Both the position numbers and the translations under genes were made by a program. Positions 492 to 58,365 of a stretch of DNA of 64,000 bases are shown here, one piece after another. This stretch comes from Chryseolinea soli. Lineage in GTDB: Bacteria > Bacteroidota > Bacteroidia > Cytophagales > Cyclobacteriaceae. The stretch covers positions 5,456,001 to 5,520,000 of the forward strand of contig NZ_CP032382.1 of assembly GCF_003589925.1 (NCBI RefSeq). The letters run 5' to 3'. The notes beneath the pieces are model-generated. The model saw nothing but the letters and a program-made list of their open reading frames with translations, was not told the origin of the DNA and did no database searches. Position 1 is the first letter of the stretch; each line of letters opens with the position of its first letter.

Positions 492-3400
492 ATGGTTAGA
501 CTTTACAAGTCAGGGCTTCGTTTTCTAACAGTAATAGGGATAGCCTTATTCACGCCCTTCTTGGCGTGGTCACAATGCAATTTCACAAACCTCAATCCGG
601 CTTATTGCACCACTGACGCCGCTTTTACCCTAACCGGCGGCACAACATACTATGGCCCTGGCGTCAGCGGTTCCACGTTTAGTCCTTCGGTGGCCGGTGC
701 AGGAACGCACACGCTATACACGACCAATGGTGCCACGACATCTTATACCGTAAACACAACCAGCAGCTATTACAACCCCGATGCTACCGCAGGCACAACC
801 GTTTCGTTCCCTTCTTTGCCCGGCGACGAAAGCAGCCCCAGCACCTCAATCGGCTTCAATTTTTCATTCTACGGCAATACTTACAGCGCATTGACCATCA
901 ATGCCAACGGTTATCTCATTTTCGGAGCACCGACCAATTCAGGAACGAATCAGACCCTGCCCTCTGCTACCGCGCCCAACAACCTGATCGCTGCAGCCTG
1001 GGACAATCTCGATATTTCCACGGGGGGAACCGTTACAACAGCGTTGGTAGGCACAGCACCCCGGCGCAGGTTTATTGTCAACTTTATCGGCGTGCGACAC
1101 TCCGGCGCGCCGCAGTCGGTGACCGTGCAGGTGCAGCTTCACGAATCGACAAACATCATCGAGTTACACTGCCAGAACATCCAATTCGATGGGGGAGCGG
1201 GGATGACCCAAGGTATTGAAAACTCGGGAGGCACTGCCGCCACGGTGGTGACCGGACGAAACAATACCAACTGGACCACCGCCGCCAGCTACGTAGCATT
1301 TATTCCTTCGTGTACAAGTCAACAATCGGTCGTGATCACCGCGCCGCCCACAGCGTTGGTCCCTACCAACATCACCTCGACCATTTGCAACGGACAAAAA
1401 GCGCAGTTCACCATTCCCGCACAGGCCAACGTCATCTATCAACTGCTGCGCGTCTCCGACAACAGTCCGATGAGTCCGACCTATACATTTACTGCGGGTT
1501 CCAACATCATCGAGAGCAACGCACTCACGACCACTACCGACATAAAGATCCACGCCACCAACACCGCTGCTCCAGGTTGTCAGGCCGACGTCTACAGCTT
1601 TGCGACCATCACGGTTTTGCAACCGGCAGCCATCACCGTGCAGCCGGTGGCCTCACAGACGATTTGCGAAGGAGGTAACGCCAATTTCAGCGTAACCGCT
1701 ACGGGCAGCAGTCTGTCTTATCAATGGCGTAAGAACGGTGTCGACATCCCCAGCGCAACCGCGAATACTTATTCTATAACCGGCGTTGCTGCAGCCGACA
1801 ATGCCACGTATACCGTCGTGGTCAGCAACGGGTGCACACCCGGCATCAATAGCTCGGCCTCTGTTTTGACGGTTCAGGAGAATGCTGAAATAACCTCACC
1901 GCCGGCTAACGTGACCGTATGCGCAGGAGGTCCGGCCACGTTCACCGTAAACCCCGGCGTCACCACGACCCCGAGCTATCAATGGTTCAAGGGAGCGACA
2001 CCCGTCGGTACGAACAGTGCGACCTATACCATACCCTCTACCGTAGTAGGCGATGCAGGAAGTTATAGCGTTCGGGTAAGCGGAGTCTGTGGCACACCCG
2101 TGAACAGCGCGGCAGTGACCTTGACCGTGAACACGGCTCCGGCCATCAGCGCGCAGCCGGTAGCAAGCCAGGCGTTGTGCGAAGGTGTGTCGGCCTCATT
2201 TAGTGTAACGGCAACCGGAACAGCTCCAACCTATCAATGGAAAAAGAATGGCGTTAGCATAGGAGGGGCAACCGCAGCAACGTATACCATTCCGAGTATT
2301 GCTACAGCGGACGGGGCAATATATACCGTAGAAGTATCGGGCACCTGTACGCCGCCTGTGACCAGTACGGGTTCTGTTTTAACCGTACGAGAGTTGCCGG
2401 AAGTGTTAGCTGATCCCGCCAGTCAAACGGTATGTGTAGGCAGCCCTGTGACATTCAGCGTGAACGTTGGAGCAACAACCAACCCCACCTATCAATGGCG
2501 CAAAAACGGTGCGATCATCGTTGGAGCAACCAACCCGACCTACACCATCGCGAGTGTCGCCACCGGCGATGCCGCCAACTATAGCGTGACCGTCAATGGC
2601 ATTTGCGGCACTCCCGTTACCAGCGGCAACGGACTCTTGACCGTAGACACGGCTCCGGCCATCACCGCGCAGCCGGTAGCCAGCCAGGCGCTGTGCGAAG
2701 GGGTGTCTGCATCGTTTAGCGTAACCGCCACCGGAACGGCGCTCACGTATCAATGGAAAAAGAACGGCGTTAACATCGGAGGAGCGACCTCGTCAACCTA
2801 TACCATCCCTAGTATTGTTACGGCAGATGGAGCAACGTACACCGTAATGGTCAGCGGTACGTGTACGCCTCCTGTGACCAGCACGGGTTCTGTTTTGACC
2901 GTGCGAGAGTTGCCGGAGATCCTTGCCGACCCCGCCAGCCAAACGGTATGTGCAGGTAGCCCGGTGACGTTCAGCGTGAACGTTGGAGTAACAACCAATC
3001 CCACCTATCAATGGCGCAAAAACGGTGCGATCATCGTTGGGGCAACCAACCCGACCTACACCATCGCGAGTGTTGTCACCGGCGATGCTGCCAACTATAG
3101 CGTGACCGTCAATGGCATTTGCAGCACTCCCGTGACCAGCGGCAACGGACTGTTGACAGTAGACACGGCCCCGGCCATCAGCGCGCAGCCGGTAGCCAGC
3201 CAGGCGTTGTGCGAAGGGGTGTCTGTATCGTTTAGCGTAACGGCAACGGGAACGGCGCTCACGTATCAATGGAAAAAGAATGGCGTCAATATTGGTGGCG
3301 CGACCTCATCGACCTATACCATCCCCAGCATTGTTACAGCAGATGGAGCCACGTACACCGTAATGGTCAGTGGTACGTGTACGCCTCCCGTGACCAGCAC

Positions 3401-6400
3401 CGGTTCTGTTTTGACTGTGCGAGAGTTGCCGGAGATCCTTGCCGACCCCGCCAGTCAGACCCTATGCGCCGGCAGCCCGGTGACCTTTAGCGTGAATGTT
3501 GGTGCAACGACCACCCCAAGTTATCAATGGCTTAAAAACGGTTCACCCATCGGTGGTGCGACCAACCCAACCTACAGCATTGCGAGTGTTGCCACCGGCG
3601 ACGCAGGCAACTATAGTGTGACCGTCAACGGCATCTGCGGCACTCCGGTGACCAGTGGAAATGCGCTTTTGACCGTGAATACATCACCGGCTATCACCGC
3701 GCAGCCCGTAGCGAGTCAGGCGTTGTGCGAAGGGGTGTCTGCATCGTTTAGTGTAACGGCAACGGGGACGGCGCTTACGTATCAATGGAGAAAGAATGGC
3801 GTCAATATCGGAGGGGCGACGGCATCAACCTATACCATCCCTAGTATTGTTACAGCAGATGGCGCAACGTACACCGTAGTAATCAGTGGTACCTGTACGC
3901 CTCCCGTGACCAGCACGGGTTCTGTTTTGACCGTACGAGAGTTACCGGAAGTGCTTGCTGATCCCGCCAGTCAAACGGTTTGTGCCGGCAGCCCGGTGAC
4001 GTTCACCGTGAACGTTGGCGTAACGACCAGCCCAACCTATCAATGGCTTAAAAACGGTTCGCCGATCGGTGGCGCGACCAATCCAACCTATAGTATCGCG
4101 AGTGTGGCAACAACCGACGCAGGCAACTATAGTGTAACGGTCAATGGTATCTGCGGCACTCCCGTCACGAGCGGCAACGCGGTCTTGACCGTGGACACCG
4201 CTCCGGCCATCACGGCACAGCCCGTCGCCAGTCAGGCATTGTGCGAAGGCGTTCCGGCATCGTTTAGTGTAACAGCCACAGGAACGTCACTTACGTATCA
4301 ATGGAAAAAGAATGGTGTCAACATAGGAGGGGCAACCTCGTCAACGTATACCATCCCTAGTATTGCTACTGCGGACGGAGCCACCTACACGGTTACCATT
4401 AGCGGTACGTGTACACCAGCCGTAACCAGCACAGGTTCTGTTTTAACCGTACGCGAGTTGCCGGAGATCCTTGCCGACCCCGCCAGTCAGACCTTATGCG
4501 CCGGCAGCCCGGTGACGTTCAGCGTGAATGTTGGTGTAACAACAAACCCTACGTATCAATGGCGTAAAAACGGTTCACCCATCGGTGGAGCGACCAACCC
4601 GACGTATAGCATACCTAGTGTAGCGACCACTGATGCAGGCAACTACAGTGTAATCGTCAACGGCATCTGCGGTACTCCTGTCACCAGCGGCAATGCAGTA
4701 TTGACCGTAGACACCGCACCGGCCATCACGGCACAGCCCGTCGCCAGTCAGGCGTTGTGCGAAGGTGTTCCCGCATCGTTTAGTGTAACGGCCACCGGAA
4801 CCGCGCTCACGTATCAATGGAGAAAGAACGGCATCAATATTGGCGGAGCGACGTCATCAACCTATACCATTCCCAGCATTGTTACGGCGGATGGAGCAAC
4901 GTACACCGTAGTCATAAGTGGCACGTGCACACCACCCGTGACCAGTACCGGTTCAGTGTTGACCGTGCGCGAGTTACCTGAGATCCTGGCCGACCCGGTG
5001 AGCCAAACCTTATGCGCGGGCAGCCCGGTGACCTTCAGCGTGAATGTTGGTGTAACGACCAATCCAAGCTATCAGTGGCGTAAAAACGGTTCACCCATCG
5101 GTGGGGCAACCAATCCTACCTACACCATAGCCAGCATTGCGACAACCGATGCCGGCAACTATAGCGTGACCGTCAACGGCATCTGTGGCACTCCGGTCAC
5201 CAGCGGCAATGCAGTATTGACCGTAGACACCGCACCGGCCATCACGGCACAGCCCGTCGCCAGTCAGGCGTTGTGCGAAGGTGTTCCCGCATCGTTTAGT
5301 GTGACGGCCACCGGAACAGCACTAACCTATCAATGGAGAAAGAACGGCGTCAATATTGGCGGAGCGACGTCATCAACCTATACCATCCCCAGCATTGTTA
5401 CAGCGGATGGAGCAACGTATACGGTGATGATTAGTGGTACGTGTACCCCTCCTGTAACCAGCACCGGTTCTGTTTTGACCGTCCGAGAATTGCCCGAGAT
5501 CCTTGCCGATCCGGTGAGCCAAACCTTATGCGCCGGCAGCCCGGTGACGTTCAGTGTGAACGTTGGCGTAACGACCAACCCAACCTATCAGTGGCTTAAA
5601 AACGGTTCACCCATCGGCGGTGCGACCAACCCGACCTACACCATAGCCAGTGTTGCGACCACTGATGCCGGCAACTATAGCGTAACCGTCAACGGCATCT
5701 GTGGCACTCCGGTCACCAGCGGCGATGCCGTATTGACCGTGAACACCGCACCGGCCATCACCGCACAGCCGGTAGCGAGCCAGGCATTGTGTGAGGGTGT
5801 TCCGGCATCCTTTAGTGTAACGGCAACGGGGACAGCACTCACGTATCAATGGAAAAAGAATGGTGTCAATATAGGAGGCGCAACCGCTGCGACCTACACT
5901 ATCCCAAGCCTGGTAACGGCAGATGGAGGTACCTACACGGTCATGATAAGTGGTACGTGTACGCCGACTGTGACCAGCAATGCTTCTGTTTTAACCGTGC
6001 AAGAATTGCCGGAAGTGCTCACCGGTCCCGCCAGCCAAACGGTGTGCGAAGGTTCCCCGGTGACGTTCAGCGTGAACGTTGGCGCGACCACCAACCCGAC
6101 CTATCAGTGGCTTAAAAATGGCTCACCCATCGGTGGTGCGACCAACCCGACTTATAGCATTGCGAATGTCACCACGAGCGATGCGGGCAACTATAGCGTG
6201 ACCGTCAACGGCATCTGTGGTAGCCCGGTCACCAGCGGTACGGCCGCCTTAACGGTGAACACGTCACCCGTGATCACCGCGCAGCCTATCGCAAGCCAGT
6301 CATTGTGCGAAGGTGTTCCGGCTTCTTTTAGCGTAACGGCCACCGGAACGGCACTCACGTATCAGTGGAGAAAGAATGGCGTGAACATTGGAGGGGCAAC

Positions 6401-34198: not shown

Positions 34199-34823
34199 GG
34201 TGGTTTGGTTATCGTGCTGATAAAGTAGTGAAAAAACACACATTGCCCAGGAGATACTTTGCCGCTGGAGGGACTGGCTTTTAAAAGGAAATTAGGCCAG
34301 AGAGAAATGTGCGGCGAGTATTTTTTTCAGGACATCAAGCTTAAGCCCTTCACTATTTTTTGAATTCAGGTAGCCAAAAAGCCATCAAAGGATTTTTTAA
34401 CCTGAGTAAAATGCACCTGTTCGGCAGCTTTCCTTCAAAGAGAATAAACATGCCCACGTTCCAAGCAGTAGCAACCTTGGCCTTACCCCGCCGCTGGTAG
34501 CTGAAATTACCCGTTGCTGGAAGAGTGGCAGGGTCACAGGATAATGGACCTGAATTTCTTCGACAAATCCGGACCGAATGTTACATGAGCCATGTAATGT
34601 TTCAATCGCGTACCTGGGAGAAACTGCAAAATGGCTAGTTTTGGGGTGTTACTTAACACAGGTGTGGGTTATTAATCAGGTGAGGCTTGTTAATGGACGG
34701 GGCGATGTGCAGTGAATAGAATAACTTCATAATCGGGAAAAAGCATACCCTCGACATTCTCCTGCCATCGTTATAATTCTTATCTTTATCTTCGTAAACA
34801 ATAACGTCTATAGAAAGTTTTTT
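34199..34823. other. Divergent intergenic region without a gene
   Basis: 625 bp between two divergent genes. No credible coding frame is visible. It holds a short inverted repeat, TTACATG (34581-34587) and CATGTAA (34591-34597), of operator-like size. The plus-strand end is AT-rich (TATCTTTA at about 34790) and probably contains the promoter of the next gene, but no full consensus match is present. Confidence 0.5.
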
Positions 34824-37800
34824 ATGGTTACTTTATCAAAACAAGGGACGGCTACGCTTCGCGCCATTTTTTTAGCTGCTTTTTGCCTCATCGGCTCCCT
34901 GACTTTCGCACAAACCACTTATTACGCTCGCCAGAACGGTAACTGGGCTACCCCGTCAACATGGTCCACCGTGTCTTGTTCCGGTGCAGCTGCAACCACC
35001 GTACCGGGATCGACCTCCAATGTGGTGATCTGCGCGGGGCGCACGGTGACTGCGTCTTCTAATACGAGCACGACCGTGGCCAACGTGACCATCCAGGCTA
35101 CGGGTATTCTAACCCGGACGGGCAACGGTCATATTTACATGAATTCATTAGTGCTGGATGGCCTCGTGGACGGCAACGGTCAGGGCGATCTCCGGATGGG
35201 AAATACGGCAGGATCTACGCTTAGCGGAACCGGGGTTTACAGTGTCGACAATGGCAGCAGCGATATCCGCCTCCAAAGTAACGTAACCATTCTCGCAGGT
35301 ACCGACCTCACCTTCGACGATGATGGCACCTTTCGTATCAATGGAAAAACCGCAACCAACAACGGCAAAATTTCCATCATCACACCTTCGAACTTTTCCG
35401 GCAACGGAATCTTCCTGAATAATACAACAACATCCTATTTGCTGTACAGTCGGGGCGCTAATTTTGGCGGAACCACGCTCAATGCTGCCAACACAGGCAA
35501 CACAGTTGAATTCAAACCCACTTCAGGCTCCAGAACAATGGGTGGCGCAGGAAGTTTTTATCATTTGATCATCAGCGGGGCAACTTCCAACTGCAGCGCC
35601 GCCACAACCATTCGGGGCAACCTCACCATTAACGCCGGTGCTACCTTGAACTCCAACGGAAGGGACATTAGTATTGCCGGCAATTGGACCAATAACGGCT
35701 CGTTTACCGAGGGTACTAGAAAAGTAACTTTCAACGGCAGCGCGAACAACCAAACCGTTACAGCCGAAACATTCTACGACCTCACCATCAATAACACATT
35801 CGCTAGCGGTAAGGTTACGGCCACCGGGAATATCAGTATCACCAACGGCCGCACGTTGACGATGACCTCCGGTATTTTCGACATGCAAACCAATACGCTC
35901 ACGCAAACTGCTGGCTCGGCCAAACTGACTGCGAGCGGGGGGGATCTTCGCATGGCAAAGACGGGAGTGACGCTGCCTGAACTTACCGGAACCTACACGA
36001 TCACCGGGGGAACGATCACCTTCAGTGGATCGGGTGCCCAGACGGCAAGAGCCCTTAACACAGGCTCCAGTACGTATTATCACATTGCCTTCAGCGGTGG
36101 TGGTACCACTACACTTGCCGGGGACATTACGGTTAAGGGTAACTGGACGAATACAGGAAACACGGTGACAGGCAACGTGATCACGACCTTTGGTGGCACA
36201 GGGACGCAGACCATAACCAACACTGCGGGTCAGATCTTTTACACCCTTAAGACAAACACCACTGGGCCTTTGACCCTGGCGGCTTCAACGAATGCTACGG
36301 TTTCCAATACCCTCAACATGACGTCAGGTAATATCAATCTGAATGGTCAAACCCTTCAATTGGGTAATGGAAGTGGTGCGGCGCTTTCCCGCACTGCGGG
36401 AATTTGCTATGGTGGCTTCTTCAAGAGATATTTCCCTGCCGCTACGGCCATCAGCCCGACGGCAGGATCGTTGTATGGTTTGTTCCCGGTTGGAAGCTCA
36501 GTGAGCTATCGACCGGTTCAGGTGACCTCAACAGCCAACGCTACAACCGGCGGATATGTGATTGTTGAACACAACGATGCTTTAACCACTGTAGATGTTA
36601 GCTATAATGACAATGAGGGTACGGCGATCCAGCGGGTTACCGACATGAACGATTTGATCTCTACTTCGGGACTTGTAGGAGGAACATACACGCTAAGTGT
36701 GACCATGGGTTCACTCTCGAGTCAGGGCGTAGTTTCTGATTTGAAACTGGAGACACAGGATGGCCCCCCGTATGGCGTCGGTACACACGTTACCTCAACA
36801 GGCACGCCAGCTTCACCTGTGGTAGCCCGGTCTGGATTGGCCGCAGGTGATTTCAACCATACGTTCGTTCTGGGTACAAAAAACGCCAGTGCGACGCCCA
36901 TGGTAGCGTCTTATTACTCCAGAATAACCGGCACGTGGACAGGCACCTCGACATGGTCACTGACTAACGGTGGCCCGAGTTGCACTTGTGTTCCTTCATC
37001 GTCGTCAATTGTGTACATCACCTCCGGAACAGTGGTGACGATTACAACCGGTGCTCAGACAGTCGATTTTGTGTTTATCAAATCCGGAGGGACACTGAAC
37101 TCCTCATCCGGCTCCTTGACTGCTAACTACGACATGTCCACGGAAGGTAGCGGCAAATTTGGAGCGGGAGGAACTACTGCCTGGACAATCAAAAGAGATC
37201 TTACATTTTCCGGAACGGGTACATCTACATCAACTGTGGCCATAAACGTTACCGGTGACCTTGAAATTGATGCCGGTACTACTTTTAATACAACCAGTGC
37301 CTTATCCGTTGCTGGCGATGAGATTACCATCGATGGAACACTGGGTATTGGCTCGAGTACGCTGACCCTGTCAGGGGCCAACGCCACCATTTCCGGTTCT
37401 GCGGGAAGTATCACGGGGACATCTTCGGCTAATATAAATTTCACTACCTCTAAGAGCATTCTGTCGGGAAGCAGTTTGACAATTCAACCCAACATCAACT
37501 TGTCTTCTGGAGTTGTATTAACCAATTCGGGTACCGTTACCCATTCCGGAAACCTAACAGGCGCCGCCGCTTCATCCACATGGGTTAACGACGCCGGCTC
37601 CGTTTATAACGTCACCGGTGCCGTGCTCGCAACCGGCGTGCTCAACACCGATGCGATTCCCAACTTGGTAAACTACAATGGAAGTGGTGCCCAAACCGTC
37701 AAAGCGCCCAACACCACGTACTATGATCTTCAAATATCCAACGCAGGCACAAAGTCCCTCACCGGAAATTTGACAGTTGACAACTCACTGACGATCCAAG

Positions 37801-39554
37801 ATGCTGCCATTCTGGATGCGAGCACGTTCACACTCGGTGGCGGCGGGGATTTAAACATGACGGGAACGTCTCAACTTCTCATCGGCAGAACCAATACCGG
37901 AACCTATCCTGAAATGACCGGCGGCTATAACCTCGACGGCGGCACGATCACGTTCAACCAAGCCGGCACCGGAACCTATAGCGCGCTGGCGGTAGATTAC
38001 TACAACCTTTCGTTTGCCGGAAGCAGCTCAGCTACCTTTGATTTTCCTTCAGGAGGTAACGTCGTGAACAACTTGAGTGTGACCCTTGGTGGAACCGCCA
38101 AGATGAGCGTGGTGGTCGATCTTGTTGTAGGCAACACGTTTACATTCAACAGTCCCAGCTCAAACACGTCAACCCTGGGAGCGAACGTGACCGTGGGATC
38201 ATTTGCCATGTTGGCCGGAAAACTTTCAACAACTGGAACTTTTGTGTTCGAAATAAACGACGGCGACTGGACTTATAACACCGGTGCGACGTTCACCGAA
38301 GCCACTACAACCAGCGTGCTCTTCTCCAGTGTTAATGATCAAAACATTGGCGGAACTCAGGCTACTTCGTTAACGAACCTGGAACTTAACAACTCCGGCC
38401 CTACAGGCGTTACACTGGCAAAAGGTCTTAACCTGAGCGGTATATTAACGTTTACAGGAGGTAACCTGATCAGCTCCAGCGCAAACATGCTCGTCATGGC
38501 TGCCGGCTCGTCCGTTACCACGCCCTCCAACGACAGCTATGTTGACGGGCCGATGCAAAAAGTTGGTAATACAGACTTTACGTTCCCGGTGGGTAAGGAT
38601 GGCGAATATCGTCCCATTGCCATCACGGGGATAACGACGGCCAGCCCGACATTCCAGGCAGAGTATTTCCACAGCAACCCCGACGCCAGCTACAGCCTCG
38701 CCAGCAAAGATGCTACCCTGATCCGTATGCAAACCAGCGAATACTGGATCCTGGCCCCCACGATAGTGGGCCCTCAAGCCTTTGTTTGGCTCAGTTGGGA
38801 TGACTTTTCCGGATGGGTTAATGACTTGACCAGTATTCGTGTGGCCCGCTGGAATGGCACCACCTGGAAGGATCACGGCAACGGCGGAACCACGGGCAAC
38901 GTATCGCCCGCCACCGGCACGGTGAGAAGCTCAGCGATTGTGACATCGTTCAGTCCCTTTACCTTGGGCTCCGGAAACGGCAACAATCCCTTGCCCGTAG
39001 AGCTGCTCGCGTTCACAGCCAAGCTGGATGGAACCCAGGTGTTGTTGGATTGGAACACGGCTTCCGAGCTCGACAACGACTACTTCACCATCGACAAAAC
39101 CAAGGACACGAAAAAATTTGCCGAGGTCGCTCGCATCCAAGGTGCGGGCACTACCAACCTGCCTTCGGTTTATTCTACGATCGACAAAACACCTTATACA
39201 GGCGTGTCGTACTATCGTCTGCGTCAGACCGACTTTGAAGGACGCGTAACCGATATGGGTATGGTGGCGGTCAATAATACCGGCGGCACAGAAACACAGA
39301 CGTTGATCGTTTTCCCCAACCCGGCGCAAAACGTACCGCTCAATGTTAATCTCCGCGGTTATGGCTCGGGCGAACAGATTGCCCTGGATATGAGAGACGC
39401 CAAAGGACAAACGATGTTGTCCAAGGCGTTGGCGACGGAGAATACAGGCGAGTTGATCTATGCTGTGGATACCACAGTCCTGTCACCTGGCGTGTATATA
39501 CTGACGGTTCGCGGAAGCCTGGGACCCATCAGCGTTAAAGTCGTAATACAATAG
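34824..39554 (+). CDS. Large secreted beta-repeat protein with T9SS sorting domain
   Basis: 1576 aa. Residues 1-28 are a signal peptide ending 'GSLTFAQ'. Two blocks start with a 'NGNWATPSTWS'-type motif (residue about 36 and again near 700, 'GTWTGTSTWSLTNGG'). Each is followed by many Thr/Ser/Gly/Asn-rich beta-strand repeats ('NLTINAGATLNSNG', 'NISITNGRTLTMTSG') that look like a right-handed beta-helix. Near residue 1400 comes the Bacteroidota pre-CTD motif 'NPLPVELLAFTAKLDG', then a fibronectin-like segment, and the type A sorting domain ('LIVFPNPAQNVPLNV', about 1495-1576). Exported across the outer membrane by T9SS; adhesin or matrix role inferred. A strong terminator follows. Confidence 0.9.
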   Translation: MVTLSKQGTATLRAIFLAAFCLIGSLTFAQTTYYARQNGNWATPSTWSTVSCSGAAATTVPGSTSNVVICAGRTVTASSNTSTTVANVTIQATGILTRTGNGHIYMNSLVLDGLVDGNGQGDLRMGNTAGSTLSGTGVYSVDNGSSDIRLQSNVTILAGTDLTFDDDGTFRINGKTATNNGKISIITPSNFSGNGIFLNNTTTSYLLYSRGANFGGTTLNAANTGNTVEFKPTSGSRTMGGAGSFYHLIISGATSNCSAATTIRGNLTINAGATLNSNGRDISIAGNWTNNGSFTEGTRKVTFNGSANNQTVTAETFYDLTINNTFASGKVTATGNISITNGRTLTMTSGIFDMQTNTLTQTAGSAKLTASGGDLRMAKTGVTLPELTGTYTITGGTITFSGSGAQTARALNTGSSTYYHIAFSGGGTTTLAGDITVKGNWTNTGNTVTGNVITTFGGTGTQTITNTAGQIFYTLKTNTTGPLTLAASTNATVSNTLNMTSGNINLNGQTLQLGNGSGAALSRTAGICYGGFFKRYFPAATAISPTAGSLYGLFPVGSSVSYRPVQVTSTANATTGGYVIVEHNDALTTVDVSYNDNEGTAIQRVTDMNDLISTSGLVGGTYTLSVTMGSLSSQGVVSDLKLETQDGPPYGVGTHVTSTGTPASPVVARSGLAAGDFNHTFVLGTKNASATPMVASYYSRITGTWTGTSTWSLTNGGPSCTCVPSSSSIVYITSGTVVTITTGAQTVDFVFIKSGGTLNSSSGSLTANYDMSTEGSGKFGAGGTTAWTIKRDLTFSGTGTSTSTVAINVTGDLEIDAGTTFNTTSALSVAGDEITIDGTLGIGSSTLTLSGANATISGSAGSITGTSSANINFTTSKSILSGSSLTIQPNINLSSGVVLTNSGTVTHSGNLTGAAASSTWVNDAGSVYNVTGAVLATGVLNTDAIPNLVNYNGSGAQTVKAPNTTYYDLQISNAGTKSLTGNLTVDNSLTIQDAAILDASTFTLGGGGDLNMTGTSQLLIGRTNTGTYPEMTGGYNLDGGTITFNQAGTGTYSALAVDYYNLSFAGSSSATFDFPSGGNVVNNLSVTLGGTAKMSVVVDLVVGNTFTFNSPSSNTSTLGANVTVGSFAMLAGKLSTTGTFVFEINDGDWTYNTGATFTEATTTSVLFSSVNDQNIGGTQATSLTNLELNNSGPTGVTLAKGLNLSGILTFTGGNLISSSANMLVMAAGSSVTTPSNDSYVDGPMQKVGNTDFTFPVGKDGEYRPIAITGITTASPTFQAEYFHSNPDASYSLASKDATLIRMQTSEYWILAPTIVGPQAFVWLSWDDFSGWVNDLTSIRVARWNGTTWKDHGNGGTTGNVSPATGTVRSSAIVTSFSPFTLGSGNGNNPLPVELLAFTAKLDGTQVLLDWNTASELDNDYFTIDKTKDTKKFAEVARIQGAGTTNLPSVYSTIDKTPYTGVSYYRLRQTDFEGRVTDMGMVAVNNTGGTETQTLIVFPNPAQNVPLNVNLRGYGSGEQIALDMRDAKGQTMLSKALATENTGELIYAVDTTVLSPGVYILTVRGSLGPISVKVVIQ

Positions 39555-39572: not shown

Positions 39573-39602
39573 AAAAGGCAGGACATTAGTCCTGCCTTTT
39601 TT
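39573..39602 (+). terminator. Strong rho-independent terminator
   Basis: AAAAGGCAGGAC (39573-39584), loop ATTA, GTCCTGCCTTTT (39589-39600), then TT. The 12-bp stem is perfect and the A/T flanks make it bidirectional. It isolates the giant gene from the modification operon. Confidence 0.92.
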
Positions 39603-39766
39603 GTTGTGCGATACTTTAAAAGTGGGCGAAAAAATAGTCGGAAATGAAAAAAGATCGGGCTGCGGGTTTTTGAATAGTATTTTGATAGCCAGGCGCTTGA
39701 TGCCATGGTGTTTGAATCTGCAAATGAAGCCTGAATTACATCTTATCGATTATGCAGGAAAAAAAA

Positions 39767-39799
39767 TTTGCATAACCCTTTCGAATTAAATTTCCTTTG
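39767..39799 (+). promoter_or_regulatory. Promoter of the S-M-small protein operon
   Basis: TTTG at 39767-39770, 21 bp, then TTCCTTTG at 39792-39799 (one mismatch to TAnnTTTG). The ATG of the first gene is 18 bp further on. The in-frame TTG at 39797 lies inside the -7 box and is not a start. Confidence 0.6.
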
Positions 39800-39817
39800 T
39801 ACCATAGCTTCACCGTT

Positions 39818-40405
39818 ATGGTCACGAAAAAGAACATCAAAACCGTGGTCTTCAATATTTTCTCGGGATACTCTTTTCGGAAAAGGGTGACGGCCGAGCC
39901 GGGTGGCGACCTGCGGGTCATCCAAATGAAAGATCTTTCCAATCGCTACACGGCCATCAAGACCGACACGCTCACCCCTGTGCTTTCCCGAAAGATCAGT
40001 CCCAATTCCTTTCTTCAACCGGGCGATATTCTTTTCATTGCGAAAGGTGCGCATAACTATGCCATTGTGTTTGAACTGAACCTCCCGAAAGCAATCGCTT
40101 CGTCTGCATTTTTTGTATTGCGACCCGATCCTGAAAAAATTGTGCCGGCGTACCTGGCTTGGTATCTTAACCAATCTACCGTCCAGCGATTTTTTTTGAA
40201 CAATGCTTCGGGGGCTTATATGCCTAACGTCGCAAAGACAACCCTGGAGCGGGTCACGGTGATCATCCCTTCGGAAGATATTCAGCGCAAAATTGTGAGC
40301 ATCGATAAATTGGTGAAAAAAGAAGAACTTCTTTTGAAGCGAATCATGCAGAAGAAGCATCGCGTCGTTACCCAGGCACTGATGAAAATTGTTGAAACAA
40401 AATAA
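39818..40405 (+). CDS. Half-length type I specificity (S) subunit
   Basis: 195 aa, about half of a normal HsdS. There is one target-recognition domain (about 10-140, 'DLRVIQMKDLSNRY', 'FLQPGDILFIAKGAHNYAIV', 'VPAYLAWYLNQSTVQRFF') and one conserved helical spacer (about 150-190, 'IIPSEDIQRKIVSIDKLVKKEE'). A full S subunit has two of each. Known half-S proteins dimerise to recognise symmetric sites. It stands upstream of the M gene (9 bp apart), and no restriction (R) gene is present in the window. The start at 39818 is the first ATG after a promoter. Confidence 0.82.
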   Translation: MVTKKNIKTVVFNIFSGYSFRKRVTAEPGGDLRVIQMKDLSNRYTAIKTDTLTPVLSRKISPNSFLQPGDILFIAKGAHNYAIVFELNLPKAIASSAFFVLRPDPEKIVPAYLAWYLNQSTVQRFFLNNASGAYMPNVAKTTLERVTVIIPSEDIQRKIVSIDKLVKKEELLLKRIMQKKHRVVTQALMKIVETK

Positions 40406-40414
40406 GGAAAGACA

Positions 40415-42163
40415 ATGGAAGAAATGGCTCAGGAACGTATCAACAGGTTGGTGACCCTCGCGGGGAAATCATTTTTCGGCCACGCCCATTCGCGCGAGCA
40501 ACTTCACCAGGTTATGGCCGTGTTGCTGCTAAAGCACGCCAGTGATCGTTGGAATAAGACGCACAAGATGCTTCGCGAAAAACTTGGCGACGATGATGCA
40601 GCGATCGATCAACGAATGAAACGTCTCCGGTTTCCGCTGTTGTGGGAGAATAGGATCGAGCACTTGTTTGATCACCGAAATCATCCCGGATTTGTGGCAA
40701 GGATCGACAACGCATTTTCTGACATGGTGAGCGGGAGCCGTGGCGTGTTGGATGAGGTTTTCAAGGAGATCAATTTTAATGCGCCGGCATTGGGACAGCG
40801 AAACCGGAAGTTGAAAACGCTGATCGCCGATATTGCCAACCCAATGCTCGATCTGAGCGATGATTTTCGCCTTGGGGAGGCCGTTTCGTGTCTTCTGGAA
40901 AGTTTTTTTAACGGGTTGCCTACAGTTGGCGAGCACTACACGCAGCGCAAGGTTTCGATGTTGCTGGCCAGGTTGTTGGACCCGCAGGAAGGCATGCAGA
41001 TCTGTGATCCGTTTATGGGCACAGGATCGACGTTGATCGAAACAGCCAAACACGTGCGCGGCCCCAATGGAATGCGTTCAAGGAATGTTTCACTCTACGG
41101 CCAGGACAATAACCGGGAGGCCTGGACCACAGCGAAGCTCAATTTTCTTCTTCACCATTGGGATGATGTGCACCTGGGAGTGGGGGATATTTTTAATAAC
41201 CCCCTTCACCTTGAGCATGGTGGGTTGATGCGTTTTGACATCGTTGTCGGGGCGCCACCCATGGAGGCGGAAGGGCCGACGGCTGAAGAGGCGAGACGCG
41301 ATCCCTATCAGCGGTTTTTGAGGGGCTGTCCGCCAAAGGGCAGGGGAGATTTTGCATACATTCTGCATGCTGTCGAGACGCTTGGGCCGGGGGGAAGAGC
41401 GGGGCTTGTTGTTCCGCAAGGCGTGCTGTTCAGAGGCCAGCGGGAAGGGGTGATCCGGCGATCGCTAATCGAAGAGAACCTCATCGATGCCGTGATTGCT
41501 TTGCCGCAGCATCAGGTCTATGGCATGGGAGTTCCCGCCGCTATTATAATTTTCAATAAAGCGCGTAAAACAAAAAGCGTCGTGTTCATCGATGCGAGCA
41601 AGAAACAAACCATCGGCAGGAAAGCTATGAGATGGAGTGACGAAGACATTGACCGGATCGTTTCCATCTACCGCAAGCGGGAGAGCGTTGCAAAATATGC
41701 CTATGTGTCGTCGCAGGCTCAGATCCGGAATAATCAATTCAACCTAAGCGTTTCCCGTTACGTCGGTAGCGATAGAGGTGATGAGTTGTCGACAGCTATT
41801 ATTTTGAATGAAGACGACATCCTGAAATTGGAGTCCGAATTGGGGCAAGTCAGGAACGACATTCGGATAGAGCTGCGCAACCTGCTGGGCAGCGATGGAG
41901 ACGACATTCTATCGATCGTGAATGAACCCCTACCGCCATACGTACGCGAAATAGGTCTGGTAATGATATGGAAGAACGGGCAACTTGGAATTTTGATGGT
42001 GGATGTGGCCTCATTCTTCGACCGGAGAAACGATGAACAGACACGAGTGCCTCAGAAAATCTCCTACCTCAGGAAAAGCAACAAGAACAGGCAGCCCTTT
42101 AAAAAGGCTGCACGCTCAAAAAAGCCGAAGGAGGTTCTACAGGAAGAAGCAACAATGATTTAG
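40415..42163 (+). CDS. Type I-like DNA methyltransferase (M) subunit with degenerate motif IV
   Basis: 582 aa. The N-terminal helical domain (about 10-150) resembles HsdM_N. 'VGEHYTQRKVSMLLARLLDP' leads into the SAM-binding motif I 'DPFMGTGS' (198-205). Where active adenine methyltransferases have (N/D/S)PP(Y/F), this protein has 'FDIVVGAPPMEAEG' with A280-P-P-M283, so the catalytic Asn/Asp and the aromatic residue are both replaced. The remaining fold ('GRAGLVVPQGVLFRG', 'IDAVIALPQHQVYGMGVPAAIIIFNK') is intact. The Lys/Arg-rich C-terminus (about 545-575) could bind nucleic acid. A binding-only or regulatory protein is a reasonable inference; so is altered chemistry. Confidence 0.8.
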   Translation: MEEMAQERINRLVTLAGKSFFGHAHSREQLHQVMAVLLLKHASDRWNKTHKMLREKLGDDDAAIDQRMKRLRFPLLWENRIEHLFDHRNHPGFVARIDNAFSDMVSGSRGVLDEVFKEINFNAPALGQRNRKLKTLIADIANPMLDLSDDFRLGEAVSCLLESFFNGLPTVGEHYTQRKVSMLLARLLDPQEGMQICDPFMGTGSTLIETAKHVRGPNGMRSRNVSLYGQDNNREAWTTAKLNFLLHHWDDVHLGVGDIFNNPLHLEHGGLMRFDIVVGAPPMEAEGPTAEEARRDPYQRFLRGCPPKGRGDFAYILHAVETLGPGGRAGLVVPQGVLFRGQREGVIRRSLIEENLIDAVIALPQHQVYGMGVPAAIIIFNKARKTKSVVFIDASKKQTIGRKAMRWSDEDIDRIVSIYRKRESVAKYAYVSSQAQIRNNQFNLSVSRYVGSDRGDELSTAIILNEDDILKLESELGQVRNDIRIELRNLLGSDGDDILSIVNEPLPPYVREIGLVMIWKNGQLGILMVDVASFFDRRNDEQTRVPQKISYLRKSNKNRQPFKKAARSKKPKEVLQEEATMI

Positions 42164-42174
42164 ATTAAGCCTAT

Positions 42175-42447
42175 ATGCCGACCACGAATGAGCATGACCA
42201 CACCACTGTGATATTACCAAAATCTTCGCGATTGACGATGGAGATTGTAGAGCAATTGGATCAACTATTGAACTCGTCGACCGCCGAGGAATACCGGAAC
42301 ACCCTTTTAGAGGTGTATCACCTCTACATCTTGCACGAGCACGGTCATCTTCCGGTTCATTTTGACAGCATGGCGAACCATATGTACGCGCTGACCGAGT
42401 TTTTCAGAATAACGGAAGCTGAAATGCGTAAAAAGCCCGACCATTAG
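42175..42447 (+). CDS. 90-aa helical protein, third gene of the S-M operon
   Basis: 90 aa, 11 bp after the M gene stop and probably co-transcribed. Not a recognised family. It is mostly helical with a conserved core 'RNTLLEVYHLYILHEHGHLP' followed by 'FDSMANHMYALTEFF'. A clear paralogue is encoded at 57182-57496: about 32 of 68 aligned residues are identical, including RNTLLE, the HEH triplet, LP, FD and MA. No signal peptide or membrane helix is present. The His/Glu cluster could bind a metal, but this is speculative. Confidence 0.8.
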   Translation: MPTTNEHDHTTVILPKSSRLTMEIVEQLDQLLNSSTAEEYRNTLLEVYHLYILHEHGHLPVHFDSMANHMYALTEFFRITEAEMRKKPDH

Positions 42448-57156: not shown

Positions 57157-57190
57157 GCAACATAGTCTCCCGCCTCGGGGACTATGTTGC
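57157..57190. repeat. 34-nt bulged hairpin at the 3' end of the 104-aa gene
   Basis: On the minus strand: GCAACATAGTC, core CCCGAGGCGGG, bulged A, GACTATGTTGC. It has the same architecture as 45676-45709, with eight of eleven outer base pairs changed and all still paired. It overlaps the TAG stop of the gene at 57182-57496. Confidence 0.78.
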
Positions 57191-57496
57191 CTCCAACCGA
57201 TCCCCCGCATCCAGGTTGGCAACAGAAGGTTTACCTTTCCCTCCATCGATCACACTCTTAAAGAAGTTATCCAAACAATAAAAGTGCGTCGCCATCTCAT
57301 CAAACTCCAACGGCAGGTTGTCGTGTTCATGCATGACATAGGACTGGTAGAACTCCAGCAGCGTGTTGCGCACATCCTGGGCCGGGAAGTTGCAGAGCAA
57401 ATCGTGAAGCTGGTTGAGGGCCGGCAAGCTGAGGGGCGTGTTAGACGGCAGCCGAAACGTTGTGTATTCGATCCGCGATGGGTTGGGAAGACTCAT
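57182..57496 (-). CDS. 104-aa paralogue of the S-M operon small protein
   Basis: 104 aa. The core 'RNTLLEFYQSYVMHEHDNLP' followed by 'FDEMATHFYCLDNFF' aligns without gaps with the protein at 42175-42447 (about 32 of 68 identities). The C-terminal ~20 residues ('GKGKPSVANLDAGDRLEA') are unrelated, and the last codons run into a palindromic hairpin. This suggests the original 3' end was replaced or extended by the repeat (inference). No methyltransferase or S gene is near this copy; a REP-bounded element and an XRE regulator lie upstream. Confidence 0.78.
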   Translation of the reverse strand: MSLPNPSRIEYTTFRLPSNTPLSLPALNQLHDLLCNFPAQDVRNTLLEFYQSYVMHEHDNLPLEFDEMATHFYCLDNFFKSVIDGGKGKPSVANLDAGDRLEAT

Positions 57497-57924: not shown

Positions 57925-58365
57925 ATGACAACCGACCAAACACCCAAAGCCCACCTGGGCCGCAACGTTCGCCACTTCCGCCTGGAAAATAACCTCAGTC
58001 AAGAAGCGTTTGCCGATCTGCTCGGCGCGCCGTGGTCGCAGAAGAAAGTGTCTCAACTTGAAAACAAAGCTGACATAGAAGCTGACGTGCTGGAAGAAAT
58101 AGCCAGGGTATTGAATGTCTCTTCAGAGGTGATTAAAGAGTATAGTGAGGCGCCGGTGGTGAATAATATTCAGAACAATTATGAGGGGTCGAATAATCAG
58201 GCGACGGTGAGCAATCAGCAAGGGCCTAACTATGGTTGTACTTTCAATCCGTTGGATAAATTGATCGAAGCACATGAGGAGATAAAGAAATTACATGCTG
58301 CGTTGTTGAAAGAGAAAGACGATAAGATTGTGTTGTTGAATAGAATGTTGCAGGAGAAGCGATAA
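57925..58365 (+). CDS. XRE-family transcriptional regulator with C-terminal coiled coil
   Basis: 146 aa. A helix-turn-helix of the Cro/C1 type spans about 10-70 ('NVRHFRLENNLSQEAFADLL', 'WSQKKVSQLENKADIEADVL'). A polar linker 'NNIQNNYEGSNNQATVSNQQ' is followed by a C-terminal helix ('LIEAHEEIKKLHAALLKEKD') likely to dimerise. It has a consensus promoter directly at its start codon, a place where autorepression would be easy. No obvious partner toxin is adjacent. Confidence 0.88.
   Translation: MTTDQTPKAHLGRNVRHFRLENNLSQEAFADLLGAPWSQKKVSQLENKADIEADVLEEIARVLNVSSEVIKEYSEAPVVNNIQNNYEGSNNQATVSNQQGPNYGCTFNPLDKLIEAHEEIKKLHAALLKEKDDKIVLLNRMLQEKR

Follow-up and report, generated by a model that had tools for sequence, protein, structure and literature searches.

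The S (specificity) and M (methyltransferase) subunits of type I restriction-modification systems bind DNA only when they are together, and half-length S proteins (half-S) are known to form homodimers that read interrupted palindromes, according to the account in PMC3874165. Here we analyzed a 64,000-nucleotide stretch of the Chryseolinea soli chromosome (NZ_CP032382.1, positions 5,456,001 to 5,520,000; hereafter the window), and in particular an operon encoding a half-S, an M (HsdM)-like protein and a small 90-aa protein. The HsdM-like protein has lost the base pocket of active adenine methyltransferases, whereas the half-S is the most conserved subunit of the operon. On balance, the operon probably encodes a non-methylating, site-specific DNA-binding regulator derived from a type I modification complex. 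No account of a conserved inactive HsdM operon was found in the literature among the titles and abstract openings of the matches listed.

An HsdM-like protein without the base pocket

The operon and the main features of its products are as follows.

39818..40405, + strand: half-HsdS with one target recognition domain (TRD), 195 aa (PF01420, 36.4 bits)
40415..42163, + strand: HsdM-like protein, 582 aa, base pocket lost, core residues of the S-adenosylmethionine (SAM) motif kept
41006..41029, + strand: motif I DPFMGTGS (aa 198-205), core residues kept
41249..41263, + strand: degenerate motif IV GAPPM (aa 279-283)
41888..42160, + strand: C-terminal extension of M, about aa 492-582
42175..42447, + strand: small helical protein, 90 aa, unnamed family

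The compact three-gene arrangement recognized in an earlier note on this DNA is borne out by the open reading frames (ORFs), by gaps of 9 and 11 bp between the three + strand genes and by the Pfam matches. The first protein matches Methylase_S (36.4 bits, cut-off 22) and the second N6_Mtase (233 bits, cut-off 20.4), and the Pfam scan of the 90-aa protein gave no match above cut-off. The half-S ORF spans 39797-40405 and could begin with TTG at 39797; the ATG at 39818 is the start common to C. serpens and C. lacunae.

The earlier note had read M as keeping motif I DPFMGTGS but carrying GAPPM for NPPF, and this was confirmed by an alignment of 123 HsdMs, which combines the best 120 among 3964 hits with the proteins of C. 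serpens and C. lacunae and one more HsdM. The APPM of the window M falls exactly in the NPPF columns. NPPF is present in 112 of the 123 proteins; those without it are the window M, its eight listed orthologues and the C. serpens and C. lacunae proteins, which have APPV, APPM, ALPL, APPA, APPL, ALPV or SLPF instead. The Asn is thus replaced in 11/11, and the aromatic residue varies among M, V, L and A in 10/11. The eight orthologues are 72-82% identical to the window M, and the next matches listed are at most 44% identical. DNA was examined in three species, the other eight orthologues being compared as proteins.

The NPPF-less HsdMs form one clade (SH-aLRT, an approximate likelihood ratio test of branch support, 100) among active type I systems. 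A long stem joins it to the tree within the group containing the half-S-bearing active loci, and the clade holds when the motif columns are removed. These were quick trees with 10 rows of the clade, the partial P0009 being left out, and C. lacunae is on a long branch. In 11/11 proteins of the clade the D, P, G, G and S of motif I are kept, and D198, G202, G204, S205, Q230 and D/E231 are retained; the third and fourth residues of motif I and the Ser before its last Gly are unlike those of active HsdMs. Nine members of the clade, those other than C. lacunae that are of full or nearly full length, differ at every one of the base-pocket positions F171, N276, F279 and F364 of PacII M1, the last being our own mapping of PacII M2 F373.

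The C-terminal extension of M is absent from nine ordinary HsdMs aligned, is mostly of low confidence in the predicted model and evolves with a ratio of nonsynonymous to synonymous substitution rates (dN/dS) of 0.21 over aa 461-582. The C. lacunae M (L066:9078-11138) is about 100 aa longer C-terminally and has lost other catalytic residues (SLPF), so neither the tail nor the route to inactivation is fixed.

The half-S and its conservation

We compared 20 further HsdM loci and locus L076 with the operon. In the nine closest intact active loci of the 98-genome sample (L076 and L118-L125), a half-S of 184-192 aa is encoded 5′ of HsdM; it adjoins M in seven of them, and is separated from it by a 232-bp gap in L121 and by a 140-aa ORF in L120. 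A full-length S (399-441 aa) lies 3′ of M in eight of these loci, L122 being at a contig end, and NPPF is kept in all nine. The 12 more distant loci (L126-L137) have a full-length S, and no half-S was seen in them.

In an unrooted quick tree, the half-S proteins of the nine active loci and the three Chryseolinea operons group together in one clade (SH-aLRT 100), and 40 halves of full-length S fall outside it. PF01420 covers residues 18-169 of the 202-aa half-S ORF; the protein aligns over its whole length with the active half-S proteins, and the C-terminal third is alignable among all 12. As judged from these alignments and trees, the window half-S is a separate old lineage that predates the loss of catalysis, and not a truncated HsdS as its half length might have implied.

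In the nine active loci, M identity exceeds half-S identity in 36/36 pairs, and over the 28 active pairs having both S types mean identity is 69% for M, 38% for half-S and 31% for full-length S. The order is reversed in the operons without NPPF, where half-S identities are 90, 62 and 61% against 76, 36 and 36% for M; with lineages in common, these three pairs are not independent of one another. Identities between NPPF-less and active loci are 34-38% for M and 26-35% for half-S. Between the window and C. serpens, dN/dS is 0.09 for half-S, 0.11 for the 90-aa gene and 0.17 for M, compared with 0.13 for the upstream surface-protein gene described below and 0.04 and 0.03 for two housekeeping neighbours. 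These results suggest that selection retained DNA recognition and not methylation: it seems that the reading of a single, unchanging DNA site was protected, and that the methyltransferase meanwhile drifted without leaving its fold. They also remove the possibility, raised in the earlier note, that homologues with an intact NPPF would expose the window copy as merely decayed, since the close orthologues found all lack NPPF and are under purifying selection.

No restriction subunit in the genome

A profile search of the window's genome with HSDR_N gave no match, although nine of 14 control genomes were positive. With the hsdR model TIGR00348, nothing scored above the cut-off in the genomes of the window, C. 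lacunae and C. serpens; the best match in the window's genome, which is one contig of 8.24 Mb, reached 41.8 bits (cut-off 284.55) and is a 743-aa ResIII/DEAD helicase. The operon was correctly described as lacking an R subunit, and an hsdR acting in trans, which would have spoken for an active complex, finds no support genome-wide above the cut-off. One HsdM match and one Methylase_S match were found in each of the three genomes, and a second HsdM looked for in the window's genome was not found. Among the features of type I systems, the locus thus has the HsdM fold with motif I, and lacks HsdR, NPP(F/Y/W) and an S with two TRDs. It does not belong to the methylation-associated defence system (MADS) either, as MAD2 scored 43.2 bits against a cut-off of 720 and MAD5 31 against 400.

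A surface-protein gene travels with the operon

Upstream of the operon lie a large gene and several candidate cis-elements.

34581..34597, no strand: palindrome TTACATG-N3-CATGTAA 5′ of the surface gene, candidate cis-site
34631..34653, no strand: conserved non-coding element ATGGCTAGTTTTGGGGTGTTACT, with conservation extending to about 34680
34824..39554, + strand: 1576-aa secreted surface protein with a Por secretion C-terminal signal (PF18962, 30.3 bits, cut-off 27)
39573..39600, + strand: hairpin resembling a terminator at the end of the surface gene; perfect 12-bp inverted repeat, 4-nt loop and T run
39750..39775, no strand: inverted repeat TTATGCA-N12-TGCATAA in the operon promoter, weak candidate autoregulatory site

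A full-length orthologue of the surface gene lies directly 5′ of the operon in 3/3 genus genomes carrying the operon. The other three genus genomes are without half-S, and the surface protein was matched only partially in them. Both outer flanks of the C. lacunae locus are unlike anything in the window, yet the surface gene, the operon and a stretch of upstream DNA are retained. As far as these genomes show, the conserved unit is the surface gene together with the three operon genes in three species; the three-gene operon of the earlier note stands, but its extent was too small, as the gene at 34824-39554 also belongs to it.

The element ATGGCTAGTTTTGGGGTGTTACT is identical in the three operon-bearing Chryseolinea species and lies within a 53-bp block that is 83% identical between the window and C. 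lacunae (E 2e-10). The 450 bp 5′ of five operon-less surface-gene homologues contain no exact copy of the element's core. The palindrome TTACATG-N3-CATGTAA has a single exact copy in the window's genome, differs by one spacer base in C. serpens and has two mismatches in C. lacunae. Because the unit and its upstream DNA are kept despite the changed flanks in C. lacunae, and the operon-less homologues have no exact copies of these elements, the sequences suggest that the operon may act on the adjacent surface gene. The 34631-34680 block also shows, by eye, a repeated GTG..TTA.TTAA pattern, and it has no Rfam match.

The hairpin at 39573-39600 appears to end the surface gene, so that the operon is probably transcribed on its own. 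The hairpin with its T run and a convergent gene 33 bp beyond the operon agree with the terminator and convergent gene by which the earlier note had delimited the operon, but the hairpin is absent from the list produced by a consensus terminator scan. A sequence TTTG-N21-TTCCTTTG lies 5′ of the operon, and we take it to be promoter-like from its resemblance to the Bacteroidota type. The TTATGCA/TGCATAA repeat has an 11-nt gap in C. serpens, and its left half alone is kept in C. lacunae. The convergent gene 3′ of the operon is AMP-binding/acetyl-CoA synthetase-like and is followed by a riboflavin kinase/FAD synthetase gene.

The 90-aa protein family

A search of 5.8 billion proteins gave 10 other close relatives of the 90-aa protein, and a profile search extended the family to 45 proteins, these 10 included. 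All were listed without Pfam domains and bear uninformative names, one being labelled an Lhr-like helicase. Members occur in at least 18 of 390 genomes of the bacterial family, with at least 37 matches in total and at least six in the window's genome; these counts are lower bounds, as at most 13 candidates were scored per genome. The predicted model has three helices (mean predicted local distance difference test score, pLDDT, 86), and a fold search with it gave no convincing match. No PADLOC match and no relative in viral contigs were found.

A divergent Xre gene lies within 1.5 kb of 26 of the 32 distinct family genes (two doubtful), against none in 380 kb of control DNA; the profile used for these neighbours was trained on 14 of the genes. 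The three copies of the small gene in the NPPF-less operons have no such Xre neighbour over the same distance, and on our reading the S-M complex would be the DNA-binding neighbour that replaces Xre there. The idea that the small protein is a third component of the complex has to be revised in that its family is usually paired with Xre.

A second family member in the window, at 57182-57496 on the - strand, is divergent from an Xre/HTH_3 gene at 57925-58365 on the + strand. Such pairs recur in other family genomes beside unrelated genes, e.g. coproporphyrinogen oxidase. In genome G031, roughly 1.5 kb separate a pair (L076:4914-5243 and 3094-3495) from the hsdR of a half-S-bearing type I locus, a possible link between half-S type I systems and the Xre-small gene families.

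Discussion

That S is the most conserved subunit is best explained by specific DNA binding in the absence of methylation. Of the roles that the earlier note had left side by side, regulation, local and perhaps of the surface gene, is favoured over a decoy or defence function. Two half-S chains would dimerise and clamp an interrupted palindrome together with two HsdM-like chains. Without the Asn-Pro-Pro-Phe pocket no methyl transfer would follow, and the complex would stay on the DNA as a repressor or an architectural block, with the 90-aa protein as a partner or effector. As S and M bind DNA only jointly, a catalytically dead M would be kept if binding were the function. The likeliest target would be local, namely the promoter of the operon itself, the neighbouring surface-protein gene or both, although we are less sure of this local version than of the regulator itself. 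We infer complex formation, DNA binding, target and regulation from the pocket loss, the kept core SAM residues, selection, the greater conservation of half-S than of M, the absence of an HsdR match and the conserved unit. An extended version, which we offer as tentative and rather doubtful, would have a SAM-bound dead M2-(half-S)2 clamp with an Xre-associated third subunit, which would serve a single secreted surface-protein gene and be carried with it as a unit of four genes. In the same vein, the half-S encoded 5′ of HsdM in active systems of this group might already act as a specificity subunit with a regulatory role, and the complex would have arisen from it.

Several observations weigh against a regulator, or against parts of its proposed mechanism. 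The C. lacunae M retains F at the motif IV aromatic position and at the F364 equivalent, which makes inactivity less certain. Since 69 of the 178 near-fixed positions of active HsdMs are lost in the NPPF-less clade and motif I residues are altered, the alignment indicates that pocket loss is not the sole change in M, and SAM binding is not assured. PacII DNA-contact positions are altered as well (S280 in 11/11, T367 in 7/11), R336 being retained in 11/11. As for the target, half-S occurs in only three of six genus genomes, and five genomes of other genera have surface-protein homologues, one of them partly similar, without the operon. When the 150-bp upstream stretch was shuffled 200 times, arms as long as those of the promoter repeat arose in 29 cases, which is within chance; near copies of the 34581-34597 palindrome are not enriched relative to a control pattern, and the genomes show no enrichment of either candidate operator.

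An unlikely alternative is a defence or counter-element that sits at specific sites of invading DNA, or serves as a decoy for DNA mimics of phages (Ocr/ArdA type), without cutting. Its derivation from a restriction system would suit this role, as would the binding of Ocr and ArdA to the PacII methylase complex reported in PMC9613975. However, the operon includes no nuclease, helicase or toxin gene, its small protein has neither a PADLOC match nor a viral-contig relative, its recognition subunit is strongly conserved and not diversifying, and it travels with a surface gene, no defence island being seen here. Somewhat less probably still, a complex with a dead pocket might sense methylation state or SAM level and alter its DNA affinity accordingly. 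The SAM-motif residues kept in 11/11 proteins despite loss of the base pocket would be explained, but they may merely hold the fold, other motif I residues being changed, and no other HsdM that could write a matching mark was found in the genome, where other methyltransferase types were not searched.

We consider it improbable that M is still an active methyltransferase with an unusual motif or another base or substrate. The Asn is replaced throughout and the aromatic residue drifts in all but one protein; the equivalent PacII M1 mutations, F171A and N276A/F279A, are reported to affect catalysis (PMC9613975), and METTL14 with EPPL provides a tested dead-site precedent (PMC5023411). Simple decay of a restriction system is the least credible account. 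It fits the missing R and full-length S, the vanished catalytic motif and the faster drift of M than of S, but the frames are intact in all three species with DNA, dN/dS is 0.09-0.17, ten further relatives lack NPPF, a third gene has been added and the neighbour is conserved.

If the regulator is real, the recognition machinery of a restriction enzyme has been kept for binding alone while methylation was selected away, and bacteria gain a large DNA-binding regulator of bipartite sites. A regulatory role for the half-S subunits of type I systems then becomes testable, and for annotators and methylome studies the genes labelled type I M protein in this clade predict no methylation.

Comparison with known systems

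The nearest counterparts are the half-S-bearing active type I loci (L076 and L118-L125), whose HsdM and half-S are true relatives of those in the window, with half-S 5′ of HsdM in 9/9. They differ in having NPPF in 9/9 and a full-length S in 8/9, with hsdR confirmed by Pfam for G031; the 90-aa family is not represented in their operons, although G031 has a member near by.

SsoII-type methyltransferases are active 5-methylcytosine enzymes that reportedly regulate through an added N-terminal helix-turn-helix domain. They provide a case of a methyltransferase serving as a site-specific regulator at its own promoter (study cited in PMC3874152). Human METTL14, a component of the N6-methyladenosine writer, likewise has a methyltransferase fold with a degenerate motif, EPPL, and is kept for complex integrity and substrate binding (PMC5023411); it works with an active partner and was not seen to bind SAM, whereas no active HsdM partner was found for the window M, which keeps the core SAM residues.

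The PacII M1M2S complex (PDB 7vru/7vs4) methylates with NPPF/NPPY and AGEF/AAEF pockets (PMC9613975), which the window M has lost. With regard to recognition, the truncated S proteins of NgoAV, EcoR124I(delta50) and EcoDXXI have one TRD per S chain and about half the usual length, as does the window half-S, so that a homodimer on an interrupted palindrome would be expected here too (PMC3874165). Those proteins derive from a full-length S by truncation and belong to active type IC enzymes, whereas the window half-S represents a separate old lineage.
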